Assembly (NCBI GenBank): GCA_012729535.1
Contig: JAAYCY010000061.1
Span: 1 to 64,000 of the forward strand
Length of the DNA: 64,000 nt
Source: Methanomicrobiales archaeon
GTDB lineage: Archaea > Halobacteriota > Methanomicrobia > Methanomicrobiales > Methanospirillaceae
Direction of reading: 5' to 3'
Position 1 is the first letter of the stretch. The number at the start of each line of letters is the position of its first letter. The notes under the pieces are model-generated. The model searched no databases, was not told where the DNA came from, and worked only from the letters and a program-made list of their open reading frames with translations. A program made the position numbers and the translations under genes. Below, piece by piece: positions 15,993 to 41,031 of the stretch.

Positions 15993-16368
15993 TTTTTAAT
16001 TCTCTTTACTTTTATTACCGATATTTAATGAATATATATTCTCCGAAAATAATAAGAACCGTTTAAAAACCACTCTACTTTATTGCTTTCGGTGCAAAAT
16101 TTTTGATTTGAGTTGTTCATATTAATTCAACTTTTTTTACCTATGGAAATATTTGGTCGTGATCTAACATTGAACACTCGTTACCGTCGAGGGTTCGTTT
16201 CCACATTGTCATTTGGGCTTCGCACGAAGTTGTTACCAACAACACACGCCGGATTAGGTACATCTTGGTTGGAAGGGGTGGCTTATTAGGAAATCCAGAA
16301 TATTACTTCATGTCGTACTCATGCAAAAGTCTCATAAGAAATTATATTTAAGTAAATTCTGATCTTTT
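15993..16368. other. Intergenic stretch with a GC-richer block and a hairpin
   Basis: This 376-bp gap between the methyltransferase and the ABC transporter gene is AT-rich at both ends. A block at about 16143-16290 is noticeably richer in GC. GAACACTCG (16172-16180), a 7-nt loop and CGAGGGTTC (16188-16196) form a hairpin with one mismatch. A 48-codon plus-strand frame (16143 to the TAG near 16287) covers the block but resembles nothing I know. It may be a remnant of a lost gene or mobile element. Confidence 0.4.
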
Positions 16369-29093: not shown

Positions 29094-29846
29094 TCACGTA
29101 ATTTTCGATTTGACTATCAGTTCTCCCTTCCCCTTGTTCGCAACATCCCCATGATACACCAACATTCCGTCTTTTTCTCCAATCTTCTCAAAGGTCGGGA
29201 GCATTTCATGGATCTCACCATGGATAATACAGGTGCCTTTGGCCATATTCGCTGCCGGAATCCTGGCATCTCCATCGATTATCAGGCATCCGCCACGCAT
29301 TTCTGCTCCTGCAAACATGCCGGCATTCCCATGAACATGGATTTCGCCTCCGGTCAGGTATTCTCCCAGGTAATCCCCTGCATTTCCTGCCACTTCAATT
29401 TTTCCGCCCCTCATCCCCCGCTTCTCACCACGGTATCCGGAACCACAGTAATCCCCTGCATTTCCGTGACAAAGTATTGATCCTCCCCGCATCTCACGAC
29501 CAAGCCACCCATCTGCATTCCCCTGAATCTCAATAAATCCTCCCCGCATGAAATTCCCGCAATGCATCCCGATATCTCCTTCGACAATAATCGTCCCGGA
29601 TGACATATACTCGCCGACCCGTTTTACCCTGCTGGTATCGCCCCGGAGTACGACAACAATATTTTCCGGAGAATTAACATTCCCCTCTTTCCGGACGGTG
29701 AAAATATCCTCAAGTCTTCGTTTTTTATTTCCTTCCCAGACGAACAGGTTTTGACTTCCGATAAAATTCATGGGGTTTATCATTTCCGCTTCAATTGGCA
29801 GAAATGGTTTAGCCCGGGGTTTCATGGTAAGGGTTACTTGCATCAC
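29094..29846 (-). CDS. fwdC: Formylmethanofuran dehydrogenase subunit C
   Basis: This subunit of 250 residues is a right-handed beta-helix scaffold related to the glutamate synthase alpha-domain. Repeats of the form GxxMRGGxIxxxGNAGDYxG are visible through residues 75-215 (EMRGGSILCHGNAGDYCG, GMRGGKIEVAGNAGDYLG, EMRGGCLIIDGDA). It helps hold FwdA against the FwdBD core. It is the last gene of the Eha-Fwd string. Start choice is uncertain: GTG at 29846 overlaps the fwdA stop as GTGA with AGGTG 7 nt upstream, and ATG at 29843 is also possible. Confidence 0.95.
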   Translation of the reverse strand: MMQVTLTMKPRAKPFLPIEAEMINPMNFIGSQNLFVWEGNKKRRLEDIFTVRKEGNVNSPENIVVVLRGDTSRVKRVGEYMSSGTIIVEGDIGMHCGNFMRGGFIEIQGNADGWLGREMRGGSILCHGNAGDYCGSGYRGEKRGMRGGKIEVAGNAGDYLGEYLTGGEIHVHGNAGMFAGAEMRGGCLIIDGDARIPAANMAKGTCIIHGEIHEMLPTFEKIGEKDGMLVYHGDVANKGKGELIVKSKIT

Positions 29847-31543
29847 GAATTTACACCTGTGTTCATAGCAACACCCCGTTGAACATACTCGTCCTGAACA
29901 AGATAATTCTCAAGATCAACCGAGTAGAACCGTGAAAACTTCTCAACAAACCGTGGACTTTTAAGAACGTCCATATCTTCAGGCAGGTTCGCTTTCGACC
30001 AGAAGGTGCGGTTGGCAACGCCGGTTATTACTTCTCCATCCCTGCTCACGACAACTCCGTCTTTCAGGGTGTATAGTGTCTGTTGAAATGCTCCGATTAC
30101 TTCTTCATATTGGAGAGATGGATCGGTTTGGTCCGGTTTTACCGGATAGATGGCGATATCTGCAAGTGCATCTTCCCTGAAATGACCTTTTCCCTGGTTT
30201 ATTATTCCGAGTGCCTTTGCCTGGCCTGCCCGTGTCATTACTGCAATTTCTTCAAAGGAGAGTTCCCTGTCGATGGAACCAAGTGATGTCCGGTCGGTGG
30301 TGAGTTTATGCACCTGGCTTAATTCCTTACTCCGGTACTTATTGGACATGAGAAGTCCGATGATCTCAGGATACTTGACAAATGGTGCTCCGTTCGGATT
30401 GTCGGTTGTCAGCATACACTGCCAGGGATTTTTCACGAGTAATGCAAGTTCAAGACCGATCGCCCACATGATACTATTAACGGAGCTTTTCCTGCTATAA
30501 TAGACCGGAATAATTCCGGAACCCGTTTCAAGTTCTACGTCGTGGTTGCTCCATTTATTATGGTGCAGGGTATAGAGCCGGAATTCCATCGGACCATCAG
30601 CGGTCATCGTCATTGTCCGGCCAAACATGACCTGGCCCATATCGATAACAACCTGTGGTTTGTTATTTATCGAGTCTGAAATTTTTTCCGCTTCTGATTT
30701 GATATCGCCCCAGGTATTTCCACCATACGAGTGGAACTGGACATGAGTGAGATACAGGGTTTGCCTGTCCGGGTTCATATCACCCGGAATATCAAGTGTT
30801 TCCAGGGTTGTCCGGTAATTTCCCGGCATTCCAAGGTTATTACAATGAAGATGGACTGAATGAGGAAGGTGAAGAAGTTCACAAGCCCTGATGGTGGTGT
30901 CAATAATTTCCCGGGGGGTAATGTCCCAGTTTGGCACTTCTTCATCGATACTTGCAAGATCTTCACCAAATCCCCATGCTTCAGTGCCGCCGGGATTTGT
31001 CAGTTTTATTCCAAATCCCTTTACTGCAGCAAGCGTCCATCCGATGACTGCTGCGGCCTGCCTGATATCTTTATCTCCCACCGCTTCAAAAAGACTCCAG
31101 TTACCGTCAAAAAGAGTATTTGCAAGCATATCCTGCATGGGAGTTGCAGCAAATTCCTCATGGGTATGCCGTGCTTCCATGGGGGCCATTGCTCCCTCAA
31201 GAAGGGTGGTATACCCCATTTTGCTGTACCGGTAACTGTTACCGTATGTTGTCGGAACGGTATACCCGGACGTCGGATACATGGCTCCCCTACGGGGAGT
31301 CCTTCCTGCCCGCATATCCTCCGGGCTCATATACCTGCCGAAATTGACTTTTGTCCCGCATACATGGGTATGAGAATCAATACCCCCGGGCAATGTCAGA
31401 TTGCCTGCTGCATCAATAACTTCACAGGAGCCGGAGACTTTATCAACAATTCTTCCGTCACGGATTGAAATGTCCATGATGTCTCCATGAATGCCCTGCA
31501 GAGGATCGATAACATATGCATTCTTAATAAGAAGTTCAGACAT
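29843..31543 (-). CDS. fwdA: Formylmethanofuran dehydrogenase subunit A
   Basis: Amidohydrolase-fold subunit (566 residues) that joins formate, delivered through an internal tunnel, to methanofuran at a binuclear zinc site. The metal motif HTH lies in GGIDSHTHVCGT (H58, H60), further metal ligands are in the VHLHCNNLG segment, and TTDNPNGAPF near residue 385 holds the catalytic Asp. The start is ATG 31543, overlapping the fwdB stop by 8 nt and giving MSELLIKNAYVIDP, normal for the family; a 46-codon upstream extension in frame runs antiparallel through fwdB and is not coding. fwdC follows with overlap. Confidence 0.96.
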   Translation of the reverse strand: MSELLIKNAYVIDPLQGIHGDIMDISIRDGRIVDKVSGSCEVIDAAGNLTLPGGIDSHTHVCGTKVNFGRYMSPEDMRAGRTPRRGAMYPTSGYTVPTTYGNSYRYSKMGYTTLLEGAMAPMEARHTHEEFAATPMQDMLANTLFDGNWSLFEAVGDKDIRQAAAVIGWTLAAVKGFGIKLTNPGGTEAWGFGEDLASIDEEVPNWDITPREIIDTTIRACELLHLPHSVHLHCNNLGMPGNYRTTLETLDIPGDMNPDRQTLYLTHVQFHSYGGNTWGDIKSEAEKISDSINNKPQVVIDMGQVMFGRTMTMTADGPMEFRLYTLHHNKWSNHDVELETGSGIIPVYYSRKSSVNSIMWAIGLELALLVKNPWQCMLTTDNPNGAPFVKYPEIIGLLMSNKYRSKELSQVHKLTTDRTSLGSIDRELSFEEIAVMTRAGQAKALGIINQGKGHFREDALADIAIYPVKPDQTDPSLQYEEVIGAFQQTLYTLKDGVVVSRDGEVITGVANRTFWSKANLPEDMDVLKSPRFVEKFSRFYSVDLENYLVQDEYVQRGVAMNTGVNS

Positions 31544-32849
31544 GTTCTTTCCTCTCCCTGATCTGCTCATAAATTTCATGCATAAGAGATGTGTCAGTTG
31601 GGTATCCGGTTTCCAAAAATTTTCTGGTCCGGATTGGAATCCCGTCCATCCGATAGGCAGTTCCTGCTGCATCGATACCATTTACTGCACAGGGTATCTG
31701 GACTGTACACAGGTGAGTGGTTGCACTCGGGTACGGGTCAAAGAGTATGGTTGGGATTTTTGCAAGGTGTTCACAGCATGTCCGAGGGAAGTGAGCACCC
31801 GGATCACTTGCCATAATGAGAGCAGCATCTGCTTCTTTTCTTGCGAGGATATCAACCGCAGTGGTCTCACCAGGATTATAAAAGGCAATGCCCCGTGCAT
31901 AGTCAACAGCATACGGATAGCCGGTGATCCATGTGAACACTTCATTTGATCCGTATACATTAGAGTGTCCCCTCATAGGTGAGATGGTCCATTTTGTATG
32001 GCGGTTTAATTCATCGACAAATTCAATGGCATTGCGGATATTCTTATATTTTCCCCCGGTCATCGTGACGCCGACACCAAAGAACAAAGCCCCGAACTTA
32101 GCTTTTTTGCACATTTCTGCAACCCTGATTAGTTGGGATTTTGGAACACCTGCAACCATGTCAGGAACGACATCTTCTCTCCCCCTGACTATTGCCCGGA
32201 GAGCAGAGAGTACATGATAATCTCCTCCCTGCTCCAATTGTACGAATTCTGATGCAATTTCTGAGGTTGCAGTTTTTCTCACATCAAAAACGATTACTTT
32301 CCTTTCACGAAAGGCGTTATGGAGGAAGTATGCATCGGCATAGTTTGTATACCTGCTGAGATGGCGGGGATGTGCCTCAATCGGGTTGGATCCCCAGTAT
32401 ATGATGGTATCGGCCCGGTTTTTTACCTGTCCAAGAGTACAGCCAGGGTGTCCTACTTCCTGTATGGCAAGAATGGAAGGGCCATGACAGACCGATGTTG
32501 TACTGTCAACGACACCCCCGATAAGTTCAGCAAGGTGAGCTCCGATAGCCTGCGTTTCAGTTACACATCCGGACCACCCATAGAGAAGCGGACGGTCCGC
32601 TTCTGATAGTGTCTGCACAGCATATGCGATGGCCTCTTCATAAGAGATATCAACCCATTGATCCCCTTTTCTCATGATTGGGCCTTTCAGACGGTTATCA
32701 GCATCATCCAGAAACTTGTGGGCACCAAGTGTGCAGGCATTTTCAACTCCGGATATCCTGCCATCGGTCAGTTCAACCAGAATATCGTCGCAGAGACACC
32801 CGCAATAAGGGCAAACTATGTGACGGACCTTATCTTCTATATGGAACAC
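31536..32849 (-). CDS. fwdB: Formylmethanofuran dehydrogenase subunit B (catalytic, W/Mo)
   Basis: Molybdopterin-dependent subunit that reduces CO2 to formate. An N-terminal [4Fe-4S] motif CPYCGCLCDD has Cys at 13, 16 and 20, with a fourth at 39. Cys121 in SVCHGPS is the likely tungsten or molybdenum ligand (Cys rather than selenocysteine). PMRGHSNVYG and SDPGAHFPRT are pterin contacts. The listed start is GTG 32849, but GGGAGG (32849-32854) overlaps it. The ATA codon at 32840, 8 nt after that site, would give (M)EDKVRHIVCPYC, closely matching the N-terminus of known FwdB. The gene overlaps fwdD. Confidence 0.95.
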   Translation of the reverse strand: MFHIEDKVRHIVCPYCGCLCDDILVELTDGRISGVENACTLGAHKFLDDADNRLKGPIMRKGDQWVDISYEEAIAYAVQTLSEADRPLLYGWSGCVTETQAIGAHLAELIGGVVDSTTSVCHGPSILAIQEVGHPGCTLGQVKNRADTIIYWGSNPIEAHPRHLSRYTNYADAYFLHNAFRERKVIVFDVRKTATSEIASEFVQLEQGGDYHVLSALRAIVRGREDVVPDMVAGVPKSQLIRVAEMCKKAKFGALFFGVGVTMTGGKYKNIRNAIEFVDELNRHTKWTISPMRGHSNVYGSNEVFTWITGYPYAVDYARGIAFYNPGETTAVDILARKEADAALIMASDPGAHFPRTCCEHLAKIPTILFDPYPSATTHLCTVQIPCAVNGIDAAGTAYRMDGIPIRTRKFLETGYPTDTSLMHEIYEQIRERKEHV

Positions 32850-33219
32850 CTCCCAGTTGTTGCATCAGTTCTCCCACCGTCGTAATCGTATCTACCGTAG
32901 CTTCAATATCTGCATCGGCCTCCTTAAAATCAGGCATGCCGGTGCTGTGGGTGTTTCCGCCAACGAGGAAATTTGCATAGGGACCAAGTGGGAGAAACCC
33001 GGTTCCTCTCTTTATTGAATCGTCGGACAGTGCCCGGAGCACTATGGACAAATTATCAGTTCTCGCTTTGATTCGTTCCCCGTCATCAATACCGATCTCC
33101 ATCATATCTACCGGATTAAGCCGGATGGTCGAGGTCTCTCTGAAATATTCTGGTGAATTTTTCTGGTCCACGTGTGACCCCTGGATGACTGTCCTGCCGG
33201 AGTTAATCCGAATTTTCAT
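32830..33219 (-). CDS. fwdD: Formylmethanofuran dehydrogenase subunit D
   Basis: This 129-residue subunit supplies the molybdopterin-dinucleotide-binding beta-barrel that completes the FwdB active-site domain. Typical features are the N-terminal INSGRTVIQGSHVDQ, INPVDM-type LNPVDMMEIGIDDGERIKAR (residues about 35-54) and FLPLGPYANFLVGGNTHSTG (77-96). The start is ATG 33219, overlapping the ehaP-like stop as ATGA; an in-frame extension upstream is a shadow of that gene. It opens the fwdDBAC part of the string. Confidence 0.93.
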   Translation of the reverse strand: MKIRINSGRTVIQGSHVDQKNSPEYFRETSTIRLNPVDMMEIGIDDGERIKARTDNLSIVLRALSDDSIKRGTGFLPLGPYANFLVGGNTHSTGMPDFKEADADIEATVDTITTVGELMQQLGGVPYRR

Positions 33220-33827
33220 GGTTCCTCCGTGATTTGCAGGGGCTCTAGGACCCTGGCAACCATCACTGATCGGTTTGGGCACTGTTCCTCACAGGTTTTG
33301 CACCCGGTGCATTTCTCTTCGTGAAAAACGGTGTTAATACCTTTATAAACCCGCATGATGACTTCATCAGATGTACTGGTTCCCTTTGCCGCAAGCTGAG
33401 GGTCTATCTCTTTATTAACCGGGCAGGCGACAGAGCAGATTCCACATCCCATGCAGATGACCGGATTTACCGTAATATGGAACTGAAATTGCATATAGGT
33501 TCCATCCTGGGCATTTTTTGTATGTACTCGTCCGGAATCCAGGACAAGTTCCGGGCATATCTCCACACACAGTCCACATCTGATGCAATGGCCAAGGTGA
33601 ATAACCGGTTTCCATTCTCCCGGTTTTTCTGTCCTGATTACTTCAATTGCCCCGGGAGCAGGACAAATCATCATACACTGAAAACAATGGGTGCATTCCT
33701 TGTCGGTAACATGGGGAAATTCCCTGAAATGAGAAGGGGTTATGAGAGGAGCTGTTTTGGCAAAGAAAAATGTTTTTATCCATTCTACACTTGCCATGTG
33801 CTTCACATACGACAGTATCGATCTCAT
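33216..33827 (-). CDS. ehaP: Polyferredoxin subunit of energy-converting hydrogenase (EhaP-like)
   Basis: The protein has four C-x2-C-x2-C-x3-C-P motifs, each binding a [4Fe-4S] cluster: from C45, C81, C125 and C173 in the numbering from ATG 33827. The first half resembles NuoI (SVEWIKTFFFAKTAP near residues 13-27). It should carry electrons from the hydrogenase small subunit to ferredoxin or directly to Fwd. ATG 33827 has AGAGGA close upstream; an in-frame TTG at 33890 would add 21 unconserved residues and lacks a ribosome site. It is the junction between eha and fwd genes, and the fwdD start overlaps its stop. Confidence 0.85.
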   Translation of the reverse strand: MRSILSYVKHMASVEWIKTFFFAKTAPLITPSHFREFPHVTDKECTHCFQCMMICPAPGAIEVIRTEKPGEWKPVIHLGHCIRCGLCVEICPELVLDSGRVHTKNAQDGTYMQFQFHITVNPVICMGCGICSVACPVNKEIDPQLAAKGTSTSDEVIMRVYKGINTVFHEEKCTGCKTCEEQCPNRSVMVARVLEPLQITEEP

Positions 33828-33915
33828 AAATCCTCTGGTTTTGGGTTTTTCTGCATGGGTCTTTTTATCATATGTTCTTACCGGGATCAACCATTAAACA
33901 TGTGACAATTTGCCA

Positions 33916-35001
33916 TTATCTTTCAGTGCACGCAATACAGGGATCTGAACTGATATATGCAGAAGTTACATCAGCAACAGATGTCCCTCCAGGGATCATG
34001 TACCTGGCACATGCTTCGATGTTCATAATTGATGGTGTCTGAATTGCTATCTCCTGGATCCTTCCATGGGTGTCTGACTTTATCCGGTAGGTCAATTCTC
34101 CCCTTGGTGCTTCCCCCCGGTGTGTTGTCTGTCCCCTTCCAATGGTCCCCCCACCACGGATTTTTCCTTCAGGCAGGGTTTTAATTATTGTCCTGATAAT
34201 GTCGATACTCTGAAGGATCTCATCGAACCTGATCATAATCCGTGCGAAATTGTCACATTCGGTTCTCACAATGGGAGTAAATCCAAGCATCTGGTATGTA
34301 GGATGTTCAGATCTACAGTCTGATGGAATGCCACTTGCCCGTAAAGTGGGACCGACGGCGTGAACAAGCTCAGCCTGCTCGGCAGTCATGATACCGATTC
34401 CTTTACTTCGAAGTCCTATAAGCGGTCCATGTTCAAACATTCGAATATATCTGAGCATTTCCTCTTCGACCTTATCCATGGCTTTCATGATCCGAGAGAG
34501 ATCTTCTTCATCAGGATCAAACCTGACTCCGCCTGGAACAATATATGCACAGGTTACCCGGGCACCGGTCAGATATTCCAGCATATCCATTACTGTCTCA
34601 CGGATGTTCAGGAGATACATGCCAAGTGTCTCATGTTCAATGGTATAACAGTATGAAAAGTTAGCAATCAGGTGACTCTGCATCCGGTCAAGTTCATTGG
34701 CTAAAACTCTTAGATACGCTGCCCTGTCCGGAACACTGACTCCGGATATCTTTTCCATGGTTTCAATGAACACAAAATTATGGATGACAGAACAGATACC
34801 ACAGATCCGTTCGGCAAGGAACATCACTTCCTGCCAGGGTCTGCCTACCATTATTCGTTCTATTCCCTTTTTCATATACCCGAGTTCTACCTCGGCAGCA
34901 AGGATCTGTTCTCCAAAGGTTTCACACTTAATCCGGCATGGCTCTTTGAATATCGGGTGGACAGGACCGAGAGGTATTGCAACATCTACTGTTTTTTTCA
35001 T
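33916..35001 (-). CDS. ehaO: Energy-converting [NiFe] hydrogenase large subunit (EhaO)
   Basis: This 361-residue catalytic subunit is related to NuoD. All four nickel-ligand cysteines are present: C67/C70 in [13 protein letters not shown] and C355/C358 in DPCIACTER. The protein ends three residues after the last Cys, so there is little or no C-terminal peptide for a maturation protease to remove. [14 protein letters not shown] is the conserved region before the C-terminal motif. ATG 35001 overlaps the small-subunit stop as ATGA. It splits H2 in the membrane-bound complex, driven by ion flow, to yield low-potential electrons. Confidence 0.92.
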
Positions 35002-35450
35002 CTTCGAATCTCCCAGTCTTTGAATATCAGGGGGGCTACAGAGAGGATGGCCTGGATAATTTCTGTTGGCCTTGGAGGGCATCCCGGAACTTCTGCAGCA
35101 ATCGGAATGTAACTTTTAGCCGGTGGTCTTGTCAGTGAATCCGGTCTGTTATATACACAACCGGAGATCGGACAGTTTCCTATGGCAACTGCAACTTTTG
35201 GTTCAGGCATTTTATCCCAAACCATTTTGAGTTTATCTTCCCACTGGGGTGTGACACCACCGATGACTAACAGTACATCTGCTTCGCGGGGATTGTTATG
35301 GACATAGATCCCATACTGTTCGAGATCGTACCTGGGTGACAGGCAGGCAAGGACTTCAATGTCACACCCGTTACACGAACCGGTGTCAACATAACAGACA
35401 TGAATAGAACGTTGCCGGACTGCATTCTTGAAAGATTGAAGCAGTGTCAT
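34998..35450 (-). CDS. ehaN: Energy-converting hydrogenase small subunit (EhaN)
   Basis: NuoB-like subunit of 150 residues carrying the proximal [4Fe-4S] cluster. Ligands are C26 and C29 in [12 protein letters not shown]93 in AIGNCPISG and C124 in VPGCPPRP, the standard pattern. It receives electrons from the nickel site of EhaO and passes them to the polyferredoxin. It overlaps both neighbours by 4 nt, in keeping with stoichiometric assembly. Confidence 0.93.
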
Positions 35451-35824
35451 TCTTCATCCTCTGGAAAAACCCGGTTCCGGAGATATTCGCGTGCTGTTTC
35501 AGCGGTTTCTCCGTTTTTATCAATCTTTTCGAGGGCTTTGTTCATGATATCCTGGGAAATGATAGGAATATACCGGGTAAAGAGATCATACCCGATTTCA
35601 CGTCTGATCCCCCCATCAGGGTCTCCATGTTCCATCCAACTGTCATACCTTGCTCCCAGCGACTCAAGCATCAGCATGTCCAGGTTCTCTATAAAAATTT
35701 TTCGAACTCTCATTGGAGCAATGCCGAGTATTTCAGCACAGGTTTTTACCACTTTTTTATGATACGGGCTTTTTAATATGGCAAATTTCATACCATAGAG
35801 ATCACGCTCATATACCTCTGTCAT
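35447..35824 (-). CDS. ehaM: EhaM-like hydrogenase subunit (DUF1959)
   Basis: This 125-residue soluble, mostly helical protein ([22 protein letters not shown], residues about 18-39) matches the DUF1959/EhaM family and its fixed position before the small subunit gene. Its function in the complex is not known. ATG 35824 overlaps the preceding stop as ATGA. An upstream in-frame extension to 35881 is discarded because it reads through the upstream membrane subunit gene. Confidence 0.82.
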
Positions 35825-36066
35825 ACCAGTCCCCCACTTTTCAGAATGGCATACAGCCCGAAGAGGAGGATACATGTCCATACTGCTACCATTTCTCCTT
35901 CGTGGAGAAGGTGTTCATCCCTGGTAAAGGGGAGAGCAGCCAGAACAAGAACCATGATTACTCCAAGAATTGCCTGGCAGAGTATATGCCCCCTGATAAG
36001 TTCAACAATGAAAATCAGTCCATAAACCAGGGCACCTGCAAGGAGAGTGGTTCGAATAAGAATCAT
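35821..36066 (-). CDS. Small membrane subunit of Eha hydrogenase (EhaK/EhaL position)
   Basis: This protein of 81 residues has three hydrophobic helices (about 5-24, 31-46, 59-75) and TRDEHLLHEGEMVAVW between the last two. Methanothermobacter has two small membrane genes, ehaK and ehaL, between ehaJ and ehaM; here only this one is present. The position and size suit EhaL. It overlaps both neighbours by ATGA. Confidence 0.75.
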   Translation of the reverse strand: MILIRTTLLAGALVYGLIFIVELIRGHILCQAILGVIMVLVLAALPFTRDEHLLHEGEMVAVWTCILLFGLYAILKSGGLV

Positions 36067-36905
36067 CCCATCACCCCGAGGATAATAATATAAACGGCCA
36101 GGATTCCTGTTATCACGGTCTGCATTGCCACTGCATCAAATGGGGAAAGCATCGGAGTAAAGGCACATACAAATGAGAGTGATACAAGCAGGATAAGCAT
36201 TGCCAGCAGCATCAGGTACCAGGGAAGTGCTCCGATAAAGAGCAGGACAAATGCTGCAAGAAGAACAAAGGTCTTTAGGGCATATGCAACCTCAAGTCCT
36301 GCCCTCCAGACTCCAAAATGTTCGGTCCGGTTTCCGGAAACGATCTCTTTTGCTTCGATGATGGAGAAAGGGCCGTAATGCATTTTTGAGAGGATTACAA
36401 TATAGAGAGCAATTGCAATGGGGAATGCATGAATCAGAAGGGGGCCGTGTATCTCCTGGTATTTCGTAATGTCACTTATCATCAGTGATCCGGTGACAAC
36501 ATAAATTCCTGCAATGGTTGCAAATAAAGGAATTTCTGAAGCAGCCGACATAACTGATCGGATGGCTCCGAATTTCCCATAGGGAGAACCTGATGAGAGT
36601 CCAAGACCATGTTCGGTTATTTTGTGAAGCATGAAGACCGCAAAGAGGAGCAACAGGCTCCCGCCGCTAAAGACAATGTAAAATGCCCCGGTCCAGATAG
36701 CGATGGAAACCGCAACGATAAAGACATACATCGGCATGCTTGCCGTTTTTGGTATCCACGTCTGTTTGAATGAGAATTTCAGAGTATGGAGAATCTCCTG
36801 CCAGATTGGCGGTCCGGGCCGTCCCTGTATCCGGGCAATGACCTTGCGGTGTATGCCATGAAAGAGCAGGCCGATAAAGACAGCAGGTAATATCAGTGTT
36901 ATCAT
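36063..36905 (-). CDS. ehaJ: EhaJ, NuoH-like membrane subunit
   Basis: A polytopic subunit with about eight helices that connects the hydrogenase module to the ion channel. The NuoH signature is visible as KVIARIQGRPGPPIWQEILH (residues about 21-40) and FSIIEAKEIVSGNRTEHFGV near 200, with the conserved acidic cluster. I chose ATG 36905, 1 nt after the ehaI stop; the 24-residue extension to 36977 overlaps that gene and is not hydrophobic. Length is 280 residues. Confidence 0.9.
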   Translation of the reverse strand: MITLILPAVFIGLLFHGIHRKVIARIQGRPGPPIWQEILHTLKFSFKQTWIPKTASMPMYVFIVAVSIAIWTGAFYIVFSGGSLLLLFAVFMLHKITEHGLGLSSGSPYGKFGAIRSVMSAASEIPLFATIAGIYVVTGSLMISDITKYQEIHGPLLIHAFPIAIALYIVILSKMHYGPFSIIEAKEIVSGNRTEHFGVWRAGLEVAYALKTFVLLAAFVLLFIGALPWYLMLLAMLILLVSLSFVCAFTPMLSPFDAVAMQTVITGILAVYIIILGVMG

Positions 36906-36906
36906 A

Positions 36907-37110
36907 TTAATACCCGGTAAAAGGGAAATCTCCTTCAATATTTGATGCATTCCACCAGAGAAAGAGTGCCAGGACAAACACCGGAAACGTAAGTACTACT
37001 GCGATCACCGGCAGCCATCCTGGCTTTATTCCGATAGGTACGGCAAATGCGGCAACTCCGAGAATGATGGCCGTGATGATTGTTACTATCAGATATGACT
37101 CTTTTTTCAT
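36907..37110 (-). CDS. ehaI: EhaI small membrane subunit
   Basis: This 67-residue protein consists of two hydrophobic helices (residues about 6-27 and 33-53) with a short polar tail ending DFPFTGY. No domain beyond that is recognised; identity rests on its location between the EhaH and EhaJ genes. It is spaced 2 nt and 1 nt from its neighbours, so it belongs to the same transcript. Confidence 0.75.
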   Translation of the reverse strand: MKKESYLIVTIITAIILGVAAFAVPIGIKPGWLPVIAVVLTFPVFVLALFLWWNASNIEGDFPFTGY

Positions 37111-37112
37111 TG

Positions 37113-37769
37113 TTACACCGTCAGGATGATCTCAATAACCCGCAGGAAGATAAGCAGGGAACTGACATGAATCATTAATACATAGGGTGCCCCCGGTGCC
37201 CGGGTGATCTCCGCTTTTGCTATGTAAAAGGGGGCCATTCCTTCTCCCATCACCCCAAGAACCAGAAACATCTTTGCCGCAAGGGGAACCATCCCGAGTC
37301 CGGCCAGTTCCCAGATTGACAGGGTTCCGCAGGATCCAAGGGCAGTTGCTGCTCCTCCAAAGAGGAACGTGGTTGCAACCATTGCAACGATTCCGTAATT
37401 GTATGCAGCATTCAGAACATACCGGTTATTCACTCCGGCAACAATGCCAATGTTGGTAATTCCGATGAGTGCCGTAAAAAGACAGAAATTAAACAGGTCT
37501 CCGGAACATACTGCACCAAGGGTTGCAAGTCCGCAGGCAATTGCCATGAACCGCTGGAACCGGAGATTATCTGGGCTGACCTCCTTGGTATATACCGCAT
37601 CAGTCCCGAATATAATGTCTGTCTGTCGTTCCGGCCTTGCAATTATGGCGATGATGATAAAGGCTGTAGCAAAGAGGAAGAGAGTTGTCGTGTACAAACT
37701 GAAATAGTTTACAATATCCCCGAATTCAAGGACAAATAATTCCTCTCCTTCTATTGGAAGATTAAACAT
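37113..37769 (-). CDS. ehaH: EhaH, antiporter-like membrane subunit
   Basis: This 218-residue subunit has about six helices and resembles a part of the NuoL/M/N or Mrp antiporter fold: NFCLFTALIGITNIGIVAGV in the middle and AAKMFLVLGVMGEGMAPFYI, which places a Lys-bearing broken helix near residues 165-185. It probably forms part of the Na+ or H+ channel. ATG 37769 overlaps the ehaG stop by 8 nt; the longer frame to 37793 is antiparallel overlap with ehaG and rejected. Confidence 0.85.
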   Translation of the reverse strand: MFNLPIEGEELFVLEFGDIVNYFSLYTTTLFLFATAFIIIAIIARPERQTDIIFGTDAVYTKEVSPDNLRFQRFMAIACGLATLGAVCSGDLFNFCLFTALIGITNIGIVAGVNNRYVLNAAYNYGIVAMVATTFLFGGAATALGSCGTLSIWELAGLGMVPLAAKMFLVLGVMGEGMAPFYIAKAEITRAPGAPYVLMIHVSSLLIFLRVIEIILTV

Positions 37770-38358
37770 TTCTTCCCTCCCGCATCGTGCCAATGAGTGC
37801 CATCTTGGTGGATACTTTCAGCAGGATTGCACTACCGGAAAGCATGACTGCAATAAGCCAGGCTTCGGGGATAATCATGAAGATGAAAAATGCTACTATC
37901 CAAAGTGCCCATGCATATCCGGATACTGTCTCGAGAAGGGCAAACCGCTCTTCATATCCCTTGCACAGGAAATAAAATACGAGCCCTATTCCGGCAACTG
38001 CTCCGCCTGAAAATCCTGAAAGGATTATGCCATACACAATAAGGACAAAGGTGATAATGGGTGGTGCTGTCCTCATGACTTCAATCCGGATTGGTTTGTA
38101 GGTCGGAAGGGGAAGTTTTTCTTTTCTGATATAGAGTTCGGTGAGCATCAGGAGTTCTGAAATCCCTACAACAAGGCCGGGGAGGATGAGAGCTTCTGCA
38201 AGATCTGTTGCCACCAGGCAGATTAATACCAGTCCCACAGTCTCTATTAAGTCAACGACCAGGATTTTATGAATGTCATCTCGTTCACGGAGAAGTGCAA
38301 CAAAGGATATGGCAACACATATGAGAGTAAAGAACAGGCCTACCTGGTAAAAATCCAT
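37762..38358 (-). CDS. ehaG: EhaG membrane subunit
   Basis: This 198-residue protein has about six helices. The first half, with VDLIETVGLVLICLVATDLAEALILPGLVVG, looks like the NuoK/MnhC type of small antiporter subunit; the second half carries GGAVAGIGLVFYFL. It is part of the ion-translocating arm. Its ATG overlaps the ehaF stop as TAATG. Confidence 0.82.
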   Translation of the reverse strand: MDFYQVGLFFTLICVAISFVALLRERDDIHKILVVDLIETVGLVLICLVATDLAEALILPGLVVGISELLMLTELYIRKEKLPLPTYKPIRIEVMRTAPPIITFVLIVYGIILSGFSGGAVAGIGLVFYFLCKGYEERFALLETVSGYAWALWIVAFFIFMIIPEAWLIAVMLSGSAILLKVSTKMALIGTMREGRNV

Positions 38359-38825
38359 TATTCTTTCCTCCTGAATAAAAACGATGCAATCGCAAATGCT
38401 GCAAAAAGAATGCTTGTCTCTACGATGGTATCAAGGCCACGGGTATTATAAAGGATTTCATCAAGAATTCCGCCCGGGTGAGCAACAATGGTGGTTCCTA
38501 GAAAGGGTGTATTGTTTGCAATGAACCATGAGAAGGGAGTCAGATAGGTGGTCACATATCCGGCTGCGGGTGAATTTTCCGGATATTGTGCCTCAATATC
38601 CACTTTTGTGAAAGGTACTCCTCCCCGATCATACGGGTCAAGGGGAGAATCACGGTTTATGGATTTTGAATAAATCTGATCCTCATGATAGGTTATCAGG
38701 GGAACCATGATGATTCCACAAATAGCAACGATAATTCCTAATACTGCATATACTGCCACCAGGTTTTCATATGTGGACATCCAGTTTGAAAAAGTCCGAA
38801 ATCCCTTTCCAATCAGGCGGATCAA
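38358..38825 (-). CDS. ehaF: EhaF membrane subunit
   Basis: This 155-residue protein has helices at about 20-45 and 135-150 and a long extra-membrane loop rich in Pro, Asp and Tyr (RDSPLDPYDRGGVPFTKVD). The final segment NTRGLDTIVETSILFAAFAI matches the MnhB/MbhE-type region of Mrp antiporter-like complexes. It overlaps the preceding gene by ATGA. Confidence 0.82.
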   Translation of the reverse strand: MIRLIGKGFRTFSNWMSTYENLVAVYAVLGIIVAICGIIMVPLITYHEDQIYSKSINRDSPLDPYDRGGVPFTKVDIEAQYPENSPAAGYVTTYLTPFSWFIANNTPFLGTTIVAHPGGILDEILYNTRGLDTIVETSILFAAFAIASFLFRRKE

Positions 38826-39058
38826 GGTGTCACCTTCCGTTCGACAAGCATGACCAGGACAAAAGTTGTCAGGGTTGAAACGGCAATAAAAGTGAGCAGG
38901 GCCAGCGTCTCATCAAATGATAAAGCAACCAGAAGGAGGCCGAATGCAGGTATTTCCAGGTTGATTATCCGTGTCAGGTATTCACGGTCACGTGGAAATG
39001 CACAGGCTCCGGTTCCAATTATTAGAATAATCAGCCCTATTATGAACTCAAGGCTCAT
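38822..39058 (-). CDS. ehaE: EhaE membrane subunit
   Basis: A 78-residue protein with three helices (about 4-20, 33-50, 52-71), ending in VERKVTP. It resembles small MnhC/NuoK-like subunits (LEIPAFGLLLVALSF). Assignment to EhaE depends on order within the operon. Four-nucleotide overlaps occur on both sides. Confidence 0.78.
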   Translation of the reverse strand: MSLEFIIGLIILIIGTGACAFPRDREYLTRIINLEIPAFGLLLVALSFDETLALLTFIAVSTLTTFVLVMLVERKVTP

Positions 39059-39282
39059 GTTGCCCCCTTTCTGCAGAGTTGGAGCACAAATATTGTTGAA
39101 AGAGGAATGATAACCGCAAGAGCGGCTGCCACATCGACATATCCTCTCATAATGATAAGTGGCATTATGCCCCCTCCGATAATCCCGATTCCAATCAGTT
39201 TTGCATATGGATTACGGGCTAATCCGGCATATATGCTCCCTGTAAGAATTATTATGCCAAATACCAACGGAAGGGCATTCAT
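39055..39282 (-). CDS. ehaD: EhaD membrane subunit
   Basis: This 75-residue protein has three helices and resembles MnhC/NuoK (ARNPYAKLIGIGIIGGGIMPLI, then DVAAALAVIIPLSTIFVLQL). It should sit in the membrane arm that couples ion movement to ferredoxin reduction. Position-based name; overlaps both neighbours as ATGA. Confidence 0.78.
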   Translation of the reverse strand: MNALPLVFGIIILTGSIYAGLARNPYAKLIGIGIIGGGIMPLIIMRGYVDVAAALAVIIPLSTIFVLQLCRKGAT

Positions 39283-39602
39283 TCCTCAATTCCTCCTGCA
39301 AAGGTGCTGGCGATTGCGTTGGATTCAAAGGTTGAACCGATAAAGTACGCTGCGGCTGCGATAATTCCGAGAGGATGAGGGATGAGAAGAGCCATGATCC
39401 CTGCAATTGCAAAACTGAAGACATTCAGAAATGGGAGCTTTCGCATGACATCCGGCTCAAGAATTATTCTGAAAACGGCATAGAGTGCGATAAAACTGCA
39501 TAACAATGCAGCAAGTTCTGCACTCTCTGCCTGAGGGGATATGAAAGATGATGTAAAAGGGGAAGAGATGAAATCGAGGTTTTCTCCGATGATGGAACTC
39601 AT
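39279..39602 (-). CDS. ehaC: EhaC membrane subunit
   Basis: This 107-residue protein has a polar N-terminus of about 28 residues and three helices (about 30-48, 62-80, 80-95). The name follows operon order. ATG 39602 overlaps the ehaB stop as ATGA, so the five extra residues to the start at 39617 are left out. No motif reveals a specific role. Confidence 0.75.
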   Translation of the reverse strand: MSSIIGENLDFISSPFTSSFISPQAESAELAALLCSFIALYAVFRIILEPDVMRKLPFLNVFSFAIAGIMALLIPHPLGIIAAAAYFIGSTFESNAIASTFAGGIEE

Positions 39603-40084
39603 TTCCGTATCTCCCATATTGCCCCGAGTAATCTGCTCGAATGACGGTGTGAAATACCCTGTATTGTTAATATGGCAATAACCATTCCGGTGATGAAATA
39701 TTCAGCGGGGATACCTACCATTGTTCCCCCGTAAACCATGAATGTGGCGAGAAAACATCCACTTGTCCCTGCATAGCCTTTGTCATAACAGATCCGGTTC
39801 CCGATAAATACCAGAACTGTTGCCAGAAGACCGCCCGGAATACCAAAACAATACACGCCACAGGCAGCAAGAAGAGTGCCGGCTGAAGCATCCGGGGAAG
39901 AAACGATATTTCCCATCATCGTCCCTCCCCTGATATTTCCTCCTGCTTTCTCTACTGCTAATGCAATTGCTTTTGCTCCGACAACGCCCCCTTCACGAGG
40001 CAATGCCCAAATCATATCTATAGTTATAAACAGAACCCAGCAGCAGAGGGCCGCAAAGGCTATCTGAAGGAACGAGGTAATCAT
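39599..40084 (-). CDS. ehaB: EhaB membrane subunit, first gene of the Eha-Fwd string
   Basis: This 161-residue protein has about four helices; GGVVGAKAIALAVEKAGGNIRGGTMMG and PAEYFITGMVIAILTIQG-type segments are the most conserved-looking parts. Size and position match EhaB of Methanothermobacter. No EhaA-like frame precedes it. The start ATG 40084 has no strong ribosome site, and the 248-bp gap to the divergent mobB-like gene must hold the operon promoter. Confidence 0.8.
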   Translation of the reverse strand: MITSFLQIAFAALCCWVLFITIDMIWALPREGGVVGAKAIALAVEKAGGNIRGGTMMGNIVSSPDASAGTLLAACGVYCFGIPGGLLATVLVFIGNRICYDKGYAGTSGCFLATFMVYGGTMVGIPAEYFITGMVIAILTIQGISHRHSSRLLGAIWEIRK

Positions 40085-40332
40085 GCCGGTTGTATATCGT
40101 ATGCTTCGTTTGTGGAAAGGTTAAATGTTGTGATCCGTAATGAAATGCGTGCGAAGTTTGAAAATATGCTCATTTTACCTTTTTGTTTTGTAAAGGAATG
40201 ATACATTTGCCTCATATGAGTAAAAATTATTCTCCTTAGATATTATTACTTCTTGTGACGTGTGACATTCGCATTCATTATTATCTTTCCTTGCCAGATC
40301 TGAAGGGTTACTATGATCCCTGGTGTTGCTAC
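40085..40332. promoter_or_regulatory. Divergent promoter region of the Eha-Fwd and mobB-like units
   Basis: The spacer is AT-rich between 40150 and 40250 and contains no credible ORF for EhaA or anything else. A-rich minus-strand stretches (CAAAACAAAAAGG near 40180-40195) could lie upstream of an eha promoter, but I cannot fix a TATA box. The assignment rests on gene orientation. Confidence 0.35.
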
Positions 40333-41031
40333 ATGAAAATTCTCCATATTGCCGGATGGTCTGGCTCTGGTAAAACTACCTTTATACGGAAATTGTTACC
40401 ATTCCTCTCAGTTCATGGAAAAACCGGGACTATTAAACATATTTGCAGTCATTATAGTGTACTTCCCCCGGGAAAAGATACGAGTATTCATTTTGAGGCT
40501 GGATCAAATCCGTCAGTCGGGATAGATAATGAAAAAACAATCGCATATTTCCACTGTACAGACCTGGAGACTACCATGGACATGCTGTCAGATAGTGGTG
40601 TCAGGTATGCAGTTATCGAAGGTTATAAAAATTACCCATTTCAGAAGATTCTGATTGGTGACCTGGAGGTTGATTACCTTTTAAAAAATCCCGCTGTCGA
40701 TGAAGTAATTCCTGTGCTGGACCAGTTTGATGACTGGTATACGCTTTCAGGACTTTCCCGGGAACTTATTACACAATATCCTGGTTCATTCCTCCTTACA
40801 TGGACCGGATATACTGATAATTACCTGTCCGCTTTCCGTCTGTGTTCTGACATTGAACAGGAATTTTCGAGGCATCGGGATGTCTGCGGAATACGTATTC
40901 GCGTTCACCGGTGGGTCAAAAACAATCTGTTCCCGGTCTATATGGTTATGGCGTATACAAATACTGGTGGCTCTCTTCTCCCTGATATCTTAAACCAGCT
41001 ATACCCCTGTATCAGTGATCGGGTCTCTTAA
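40333..41031 (+). CDS. mobB: MobB-like molybdopterin-guanine dinucleotide protein, probable MoaE-like C-terminus
   Basis: The N-terminal P-loop GTPase domain starts MKILHIAGWSGSGKTTFIRKLL with Walker A at residues 8-16, continuing with GKTGTIKHICSHYS and VIEGYKNYPFQKI as in MobB. The C-terminal about 85 residues (NYLSAFRLCSDIEQEFSRHR onward, with RIRVHRWV) faintly resemble MoaE, a fusion known in archaea. ATG 40333 is chosen over the earlier frame start at 40255 since the family begins at this Met. The protein helps make the guanylated pterin cofactor needed by FwdB, encoded divergently. Confidence 0.82.
   Translation: MKILHIAGWSGSGKTTFIRKLLPFLSVHGKTGTIKHICSHYSVLPPGKDTSIHFEAGSNPSVGIDNEKTIAYFHCTDLETTMDMLSDSGVRYAVIEGYKNYPFQKILIGDLEVDYLLKNPAVDEVIPVLDQFDDWYTLSGLSRELITQYPGSFLLTWTGYTDNYLSAFRLCSDIEQEFSRHRDVCGIRIRVHRWVKNNLFPVYMVMAYTNTGGSLLPDILNQLYPCISDRVS

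Follow-up and report, generated by a model that had tools for sequence, protein, structure and literature searches.

The genes of Eha, a membrane-bound hydrogenase, adjoin those of formylmethanofuran dehydrogenase (Fwd or Fmd) in three Methanomicrobiales, and Eha has been proposed to reduce the ferredoxin of that enzyme (Anderson 2009, PMC2686161). Methanocorpusculum parvum has two Fwd clusters, one linked to Eha and one to Hdr, for which separate ferredoxins have been suggested (Gilmore 2017, PMC5563889), and in Methanospirillum fmd flanks eha and an anaplerotic role has been described (2024, PMC11346949). (In M. maripaludis, eha and fmd are unlinked; PMC2686161.) Linkage and functional pairing of Eha with Fwd are already known; the original prediction for the DNA analysed here had suspected as much of the linkage. 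That DNA, called the window below, is a stretch of 64,000 nucleotides (nt) from a Methanomicrobiales archaeon (assembly GCA_012729535.1, contig JAAYCY010000061.1, positions 1 to 64,000). On its minus strand, from 40084 to 29094, 18 consecutive open reading frames (ORFs), 14 of eha type and then fwdDBAC, follow one another nearly without gaps, all at the positions first given for them (Table 1). The three papers describe the same linkage, and their passages on it propose a link by ferredoxin, without a fusion of hydrogenase ferredoxin with FwdG and without an order-wide survey. In the window, the protein at the junction of the two gene sets, the junction ferredoxin (JFd), is such a fusion, an identification that is well supported. 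We did not find this bridge, an order-wide survey, the separate FwdB clade or the joint absence of Eha and its Fwd isoenzyme in the open-access papers searched, and an earlier description elsewhere is possible.

The N-terminal half of JFd (residues 1-110) resembles NuoI, HycF and MbhN and the C-terminal half (residues 115-193) resembles FwdG, with two clusters in each. Searched alone, the C-half has FwdG as its top full-length matches in PDB (9sfi_U at 52 bits, 5t5i_G at 47 bits) and is colinear with it, including the inter-cluster stretch CPVN....KG....IM.V..G; its best match outside Fwd reaches 29 bits with partial coverage. The N-half serves as an internal control, with HycF as its best single-domain match (40 bits), MbhN and NuoI also matched, and FwdG marginal only. 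A profile built from 22 homologues gives the same two-part picture. An AlphaFold2 model from 31 sequences (predicted local distance difference test, pLDDT, 77.6; predicted template modelling score, pTM, 0.52) places the C-half on FwdG: Foldseek gives a target-normalised TM score of 0.86 at 1.6 angstrom, and VIA-align matches 79 of 80 residues with Z 12.3 at 1.9 angstrom, its following rows, M. hungatei FmdG among them, having Z 9.5. Nearly all rows of that list fall on the C-half, and NuoI, HycF and MbhN are not among its rows for the N-half, so the assignment of the N-half rests on sequence and on a few Foldseek rows to complex I. The first description of the locus suggested electron channelling through an "EhaP-like polyferredoxin" at the junction. 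Its four clusters are there, whereas a plain EhaP identity is rejected in favour of a hydrogenase-type half and a FwdG half; the idea of channelling itself gains support from this make-up, with a different carrier. FwdF was also tried as an identity for JFd and rejected, since its scores sum several short repeat matches.

Two outgroup genomes agree with a modular bridge, few as they are. In one (G303), the ferredoxin next to EhaO has 103 residues and lacks the C-half, and Fwd is found there with Hdr-like and F420-module-like genes. The other (G356) has a ferredoxin made of the two halves, and its fwdDBAC, about 24 kb away, is without a neighbouring fwdG.

Elsewhere in the string, the Eha-specific membrane subunits (DUF2105-2109 and NADHdeh_related; PF09878-PF09882 and PF10125) are present with E-values from 1e-22 to 1e-101, while EhaB, EhaI, EhaK and EhaM, which have no Pfam match, are named by position only. 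EhaO has MbhL and HycE as its top PDB matches, and both Ni-binding motifs (RxCGxC and the C-terminal DPCxxCxxR) are kept in it and in about 100 of 103 relatives. FwdA, FwdB and FwdC score above curated cut-offs; FwdD is present but falls under the strict NF042908 cut-off. Among the ORFs of 29094-40084 there is no fwdF gene with 8 cluster motifs and no fwdG separate from the C-half of JFd. The string likewise holds no hdr genes, and its FwdB is outside the Hdr-type clade. Class I Eha (Methanothermobacter, Methanococcus) shares the core and membrane subunits, in an order reported to be the same (PMC2686161). By description, it differs in its 6- and 10-cluster EhaP and EhaQ polyferredoxins (PMC3087415), which are missing from the string, where a four-cluster, two-part ferredoxin is the only one.

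Three structurally known complexes also offer close comparisons. In formate hydrogenlyase of E. coli (PDB 7z0s), HycF joins a group 4 hydrogenase to a pterin enzyme that is a relative of FwdB (1aa6/7z0t). That complex oxidises formate by way of FdhF and HycB, whereas here formylmethanofuran would be made, and the second adaptor, FwdG, is fused to the first. In the Fdh-Hdr-Fmd megacomplex of M. hungatei (PDB 7bkb), Fwd/Fmd is likewise plugged directly into its donor, as Eha and Fwd may be in the window; the donor there is the electron-bifurcating HdrABC, acting through FmdF and FmdG on a different FwdB isoenzyme. The closest FwdB in PDB is in fact that of 8rja (489 bits, vs 389 bits for 7bkb), from Ca. 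Ethanoperedens, in which FwdF is replaced by another module and FwdG is kept as an adaptor (PMC11493965), a precedent for the reading of JFd given here. The Ca. Ethanoperedens module is the F420-binding FwdI, as donor or acceptor; in the window string a hydrogenase would take that place.

The adjacency survey proposed with the original prediction was run within the order Methanomicrobiales, and the linkage holds. EhaG is present in 165 of 232 genomes. With EhaG and the best match to the window FwdB taken as the pair, 98 of the 103 genomes that have both on one contig carry FwdB on the strand of EhaG, 5.4-8.1 kb further downstream. The five exceptions are spread over four genera, all in one family (f6). 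The order EhaB...O-JFd-FwdD-B-A-C recurs in loci of most genera examined and on contigs of Methanospirillum, Methanoculleus, Methanocalculus, Methanofollis, Methanogenium, Methanoregula and Methanolinea. (The window FwdB and JFd are each 97% identical to their counterparts in genome G208.)

Given the starts that are conserved among relatives (EhaO near 35001, JFd at 33827, FwdD at 33219, FwdA near 31543), most joints of the string are overlaps or a few nt, much as first described. The exception is the joint between EhaO and JFd, which is 88 nt with the conserved ATG and 25 nt with an upstream TTG; it is 30 nt or less in 118 of 125 related loci, with a median of 4 nt. JFd and fwdD share an ATGA (33219-33216), with GGAGG just upstream, and their spacing has a median of -4 nt, being 30 nt or less in 108 of 110 loci. 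A terminator would not fit into a joint that overlaps by 4 nt. (A promoter and terminator scan gave little above shuffled sequence and was not used; its consensus is bacterial and the host archaeal.) The interval between fwdA and fwdC carries an extra 0.77-1.3 kb in some relatives, M. stamsii included (loci L094, L097, L146, L159 and L039), and is an overlap in others.

The Fwd of the string appears to be an isoenzyme of its own. In a FastTree phylogeny, 91 Eha-linked or relocated FwdB sequences group together with support 0.86, separate from the 14 Hdr-type sequences, whose support is 1.0. Identity averages 71% within the Eha-linked set and 47% between it and the Hdr type. All 27 genomes that lack EhaG and are at least 90% complete also lack a close match to the window FwdB: the best FwdB of these genomes scores about 1e-138, and nearly all Eha-linked ones score about 1e-155 or better. 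Window-type FwdB does occur in five EhaG-less genomes, which are 64-86% complete. In Methanospirillum, all four EhaG-less genomes are without JFd as well, and two of these are 99% complete. The cut-offs were set by eye at the gap in E-values and the genomes are not independent, so the joint absence is to be read as a pattern and not as a test with a P-value. Together, the conserved linkage, the distinctness of the FwdB clade and the joint absence give good support to the proposal that Eha serves this particular Fwd.

A fused FwdD-FwdB of 573-591 residues is found in some loci (L091, L183, L184 and L189), usually adjoining fwdA. In some genomes of Methanomicrobium type (e.g. G115, G119) it is the nearest FwdB found, and the one such sequence in the tree is sister to the Eha type.

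From the gene order and its conservation, the overlap, the make-up of JFd, the FwdB clade and the joint absence, we infer that the string probably acts as one functional unit in which JFd bridges Eha to a dedicated FwdDBAC. Eha, a group 4 [NiFe] hydrogenase, would oxidise H2, an ion gradient would lower the potential of the electrons, and these would pass from EhaN to the NuoI/HycF-like half of JFd, on to its FwdG-like half, and then to FwdB for the conversion of CO2 to formylmethanofuran. JFd would replace both the separate FwdG and FwdF as the electron bridge, in physical contact with both enzymes, perhaps in the membrane-bound Eha-Fwd supercomplex that the original prediction raised. The path probably has an anaplerotic or a priming role, next to an electron-bifurcating Hdr-Fmd path with its own isoenzyme. 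The layout would resemble formate hydrogenlyase turned towards CO2 fixation: the hydrogenases are of one group, the ferredoxin is of HycF type, and the pterin subunit is a relative of formate dehydrogenase. The stronger statement, that Methanomicrobiales own a membrane-bound, gradient-driven H2:CO2 formylmethanofuran synthase in which JFd hard-wires Eha to Fwd and bypasses soluble ferredoxin, strikes us as evenly balanced between true and false. The supply of low-potential electrons to CO2 and the priming of methanogenesis by Eha are usually viewed as a matter of the ferredoxin pool; a bridge made of a hydrogenase piece and a FwdG piece recasts the question as a specific, testable wiring hypothesis. 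If true, Eha would be the third donor plugged into Fwd, after Hdr and the F420 module.

JFd also varies within the order. The second cysteine of its first [4Fe-4S] motif (CTHC) is changed in L040-L056, L075-L078, L100, L135, L137, L147, L149, L175 and others. The replacing residue is Ala, His, Ser or Gln in Methanoregula/Methanolinea-type genomes and Glu in the Methanomicrobium type, and the Glu-bearing proteins are those of genomes whose fwd genes have moved away. A second JFd (56-59% identical) occurs in the genome of the window at G000:C38:17643-18221 (L185:5596-6225) and also in L127 and L148, as a solitary gene flanked by those of a small sulfite-reductase-like protein and a beta-propeller protein. 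Among Methanospirillum genomes that bear eha, the better-assembled ones have it at a distance of about 11-13 kb from an Hdr-type fwd cluster; it is absent from the EhaG-less ones.

Several of these points weigh against the string as one unit bridged by JFd. In 38 of 107 JFds, another residue stands in place of that second cysteine. In the five linkage exceptions, JFd stays behind EhaO, still fused, but the fwd genes are found next to an Hdr-type fwd cluster, so a single mRNA for Eha and Fwd, or assembly from one operon, is not required; Methanocorpusculum-like genomes keep only fwdA and fwdC after JFd. Proteins of JFd type may act alone, as the second JFd lies away from both eha and fwdDBAC. 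In the model, moreover, the mutual orientation of the two halves is unreliable (as its pTM indicates), and the 2[4Fe-4S] modules of methanogens look alike.

The main alternative explanation is that Eha and Fwd are only co-expressed, for one step, and a diffusible ferredoxin pool carries the electrons. JFd would then be the exit ferredoxin of Eha, and it would owe its likeness to FwdG to shared ancestry and not to docking. The published proposals, in which Eha reduces the ferredoxin of Fmd, come close to this explanation and speak for it, as do the relocation of fwdDBAC in some genera and the free-standing paralogue, which is away from both operons. Against it, the length, inter-cluster stretch and fold specific to FwdG are in the C-half only and not in the N-half, fwdG and fwdF are missing from the string, and the gene overlap is conserved. 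We regard it as a tentative alternative, possible and on the unlikely side. Group 4 hydrogenases can work in both directions, and JFd might instead link Eha to any Fwd present, the Hdr-linked isoenzyme included, or serve an Fwd that under some conditions runs in reverse, with formylmethanofuran oxidation driving the formation of H2 and the pumping of ions. JFd is indeed retained where fwdDBAC has been relocated beside the Hdr-type cluster, and the Methanospirillum paralogue lies near such a cluster, but EhaG and Eha-type FwdB are absent together while Hdr-type FwdB remains; we rate this explanation as improbable. Chance, or hitch-hiking of two operons that are merely neighbours in the lineage, is effectively refuted by the survey: linkage can vanish while the genes persist, but almost every genus examined shows the same gene order, and linkage is kept across most of them at moderate protein identity and with a conserved overlap.

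Table 1. Features of the eha-fwd string in the window, in order of transcription, with the evidence for each name.
Feature	Position	Strand	Basis
Divergent intergenic region, 170 nt	40085..40254		Promoter of the string would be expected here
ehaB-like membrane protein, first gene of the string	39599..40084	-	ORF, no Pfam match; 50-98% identity and first place in related loci
ehaC	39279..39617	-	PF09882, E 3e-30
ehaD	39055..39282	-	PF09881, E 1.7e-22; MbhD match weak
ehaE	38822..39058	-	PF09880, E 3.2e-27
ehaF	38358..38825	-	PF09879, E 6.4e-61
ehaG	37762..38358	-	PF09878, E 3.5e-77
ehaH, NuoN-related membrane protein	37113..37793	-	PF10125, E 1.3e-101; conserved start near 37769
ehaI-like small membrane protein	36907..37110	-	Position; counterparts 27-94% identical in related loci
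ehaJ, NuoH-like	36063..36977	-	PF00146, E 2.2e-31; start probably near 36905
ehaK/L-like small membrane protein	35821..36066	-	Position; counterparts in related loci
ehaM-like	35447..35881	-	Position; counterparts in related loci; start probably near 35824
ehaN, [NiFe] hydrogenase small subunit	34998..35450	-	PF01058, E 2.5e-27
ehaO, [NiFe] hydrogenase large subunit	33916..35082	-	PF00346 and PF00374; conserved start near 35001
JFd, junction ferredoxin, four CxxCxxCxxxC motifs	33216..33827	-	Conserved start, AGAGG upstream
fwdD	32830..33219	-	PF01568; NF042908 83.5 bits, below cut-off of 175 (weaker but clear)
fwdB, catalytic pterin subunit	31536..32849	-	TIGR03129 603 bits; CPxCGxxCD cluster motif and CHGP; Eha-type clade
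fwdA, amidohydrolase subunit	29843..31543	-	TIGR03121 822 bits
fwdC	29094..29846	-	TIGR03122 285 bits

On the opposite strand, 170 nt from ehaB, lies a MobB-like gene (40255-41031, plus strand; PF03205) for molybdopterin guanine dinucleotide synthesis. As it diverges from ehaB, cofactor supply for FwdB may share an intergenic region with the string. On the other side, positions 8085-28980 hold surface-sugar genes, among them those of an epimerase and a glycosyltransferase and, judged from sequence, of UDP-glucose pyrophosphorylase and dehydrogenase; the GC content dips to 27-29% at 10-16 kb of the window. This suggests an acquired cell-surface island adjoining the string. In a low-GC stretch at 16149-16276 (minus strand) there is an Rfam match to group II intron D1-D4-7 (37.5 bits, cut-off 34), apparently a remnant or a chance match, since the adjacent ORF encodes an ABC transporter and not a reverse transcriptase.

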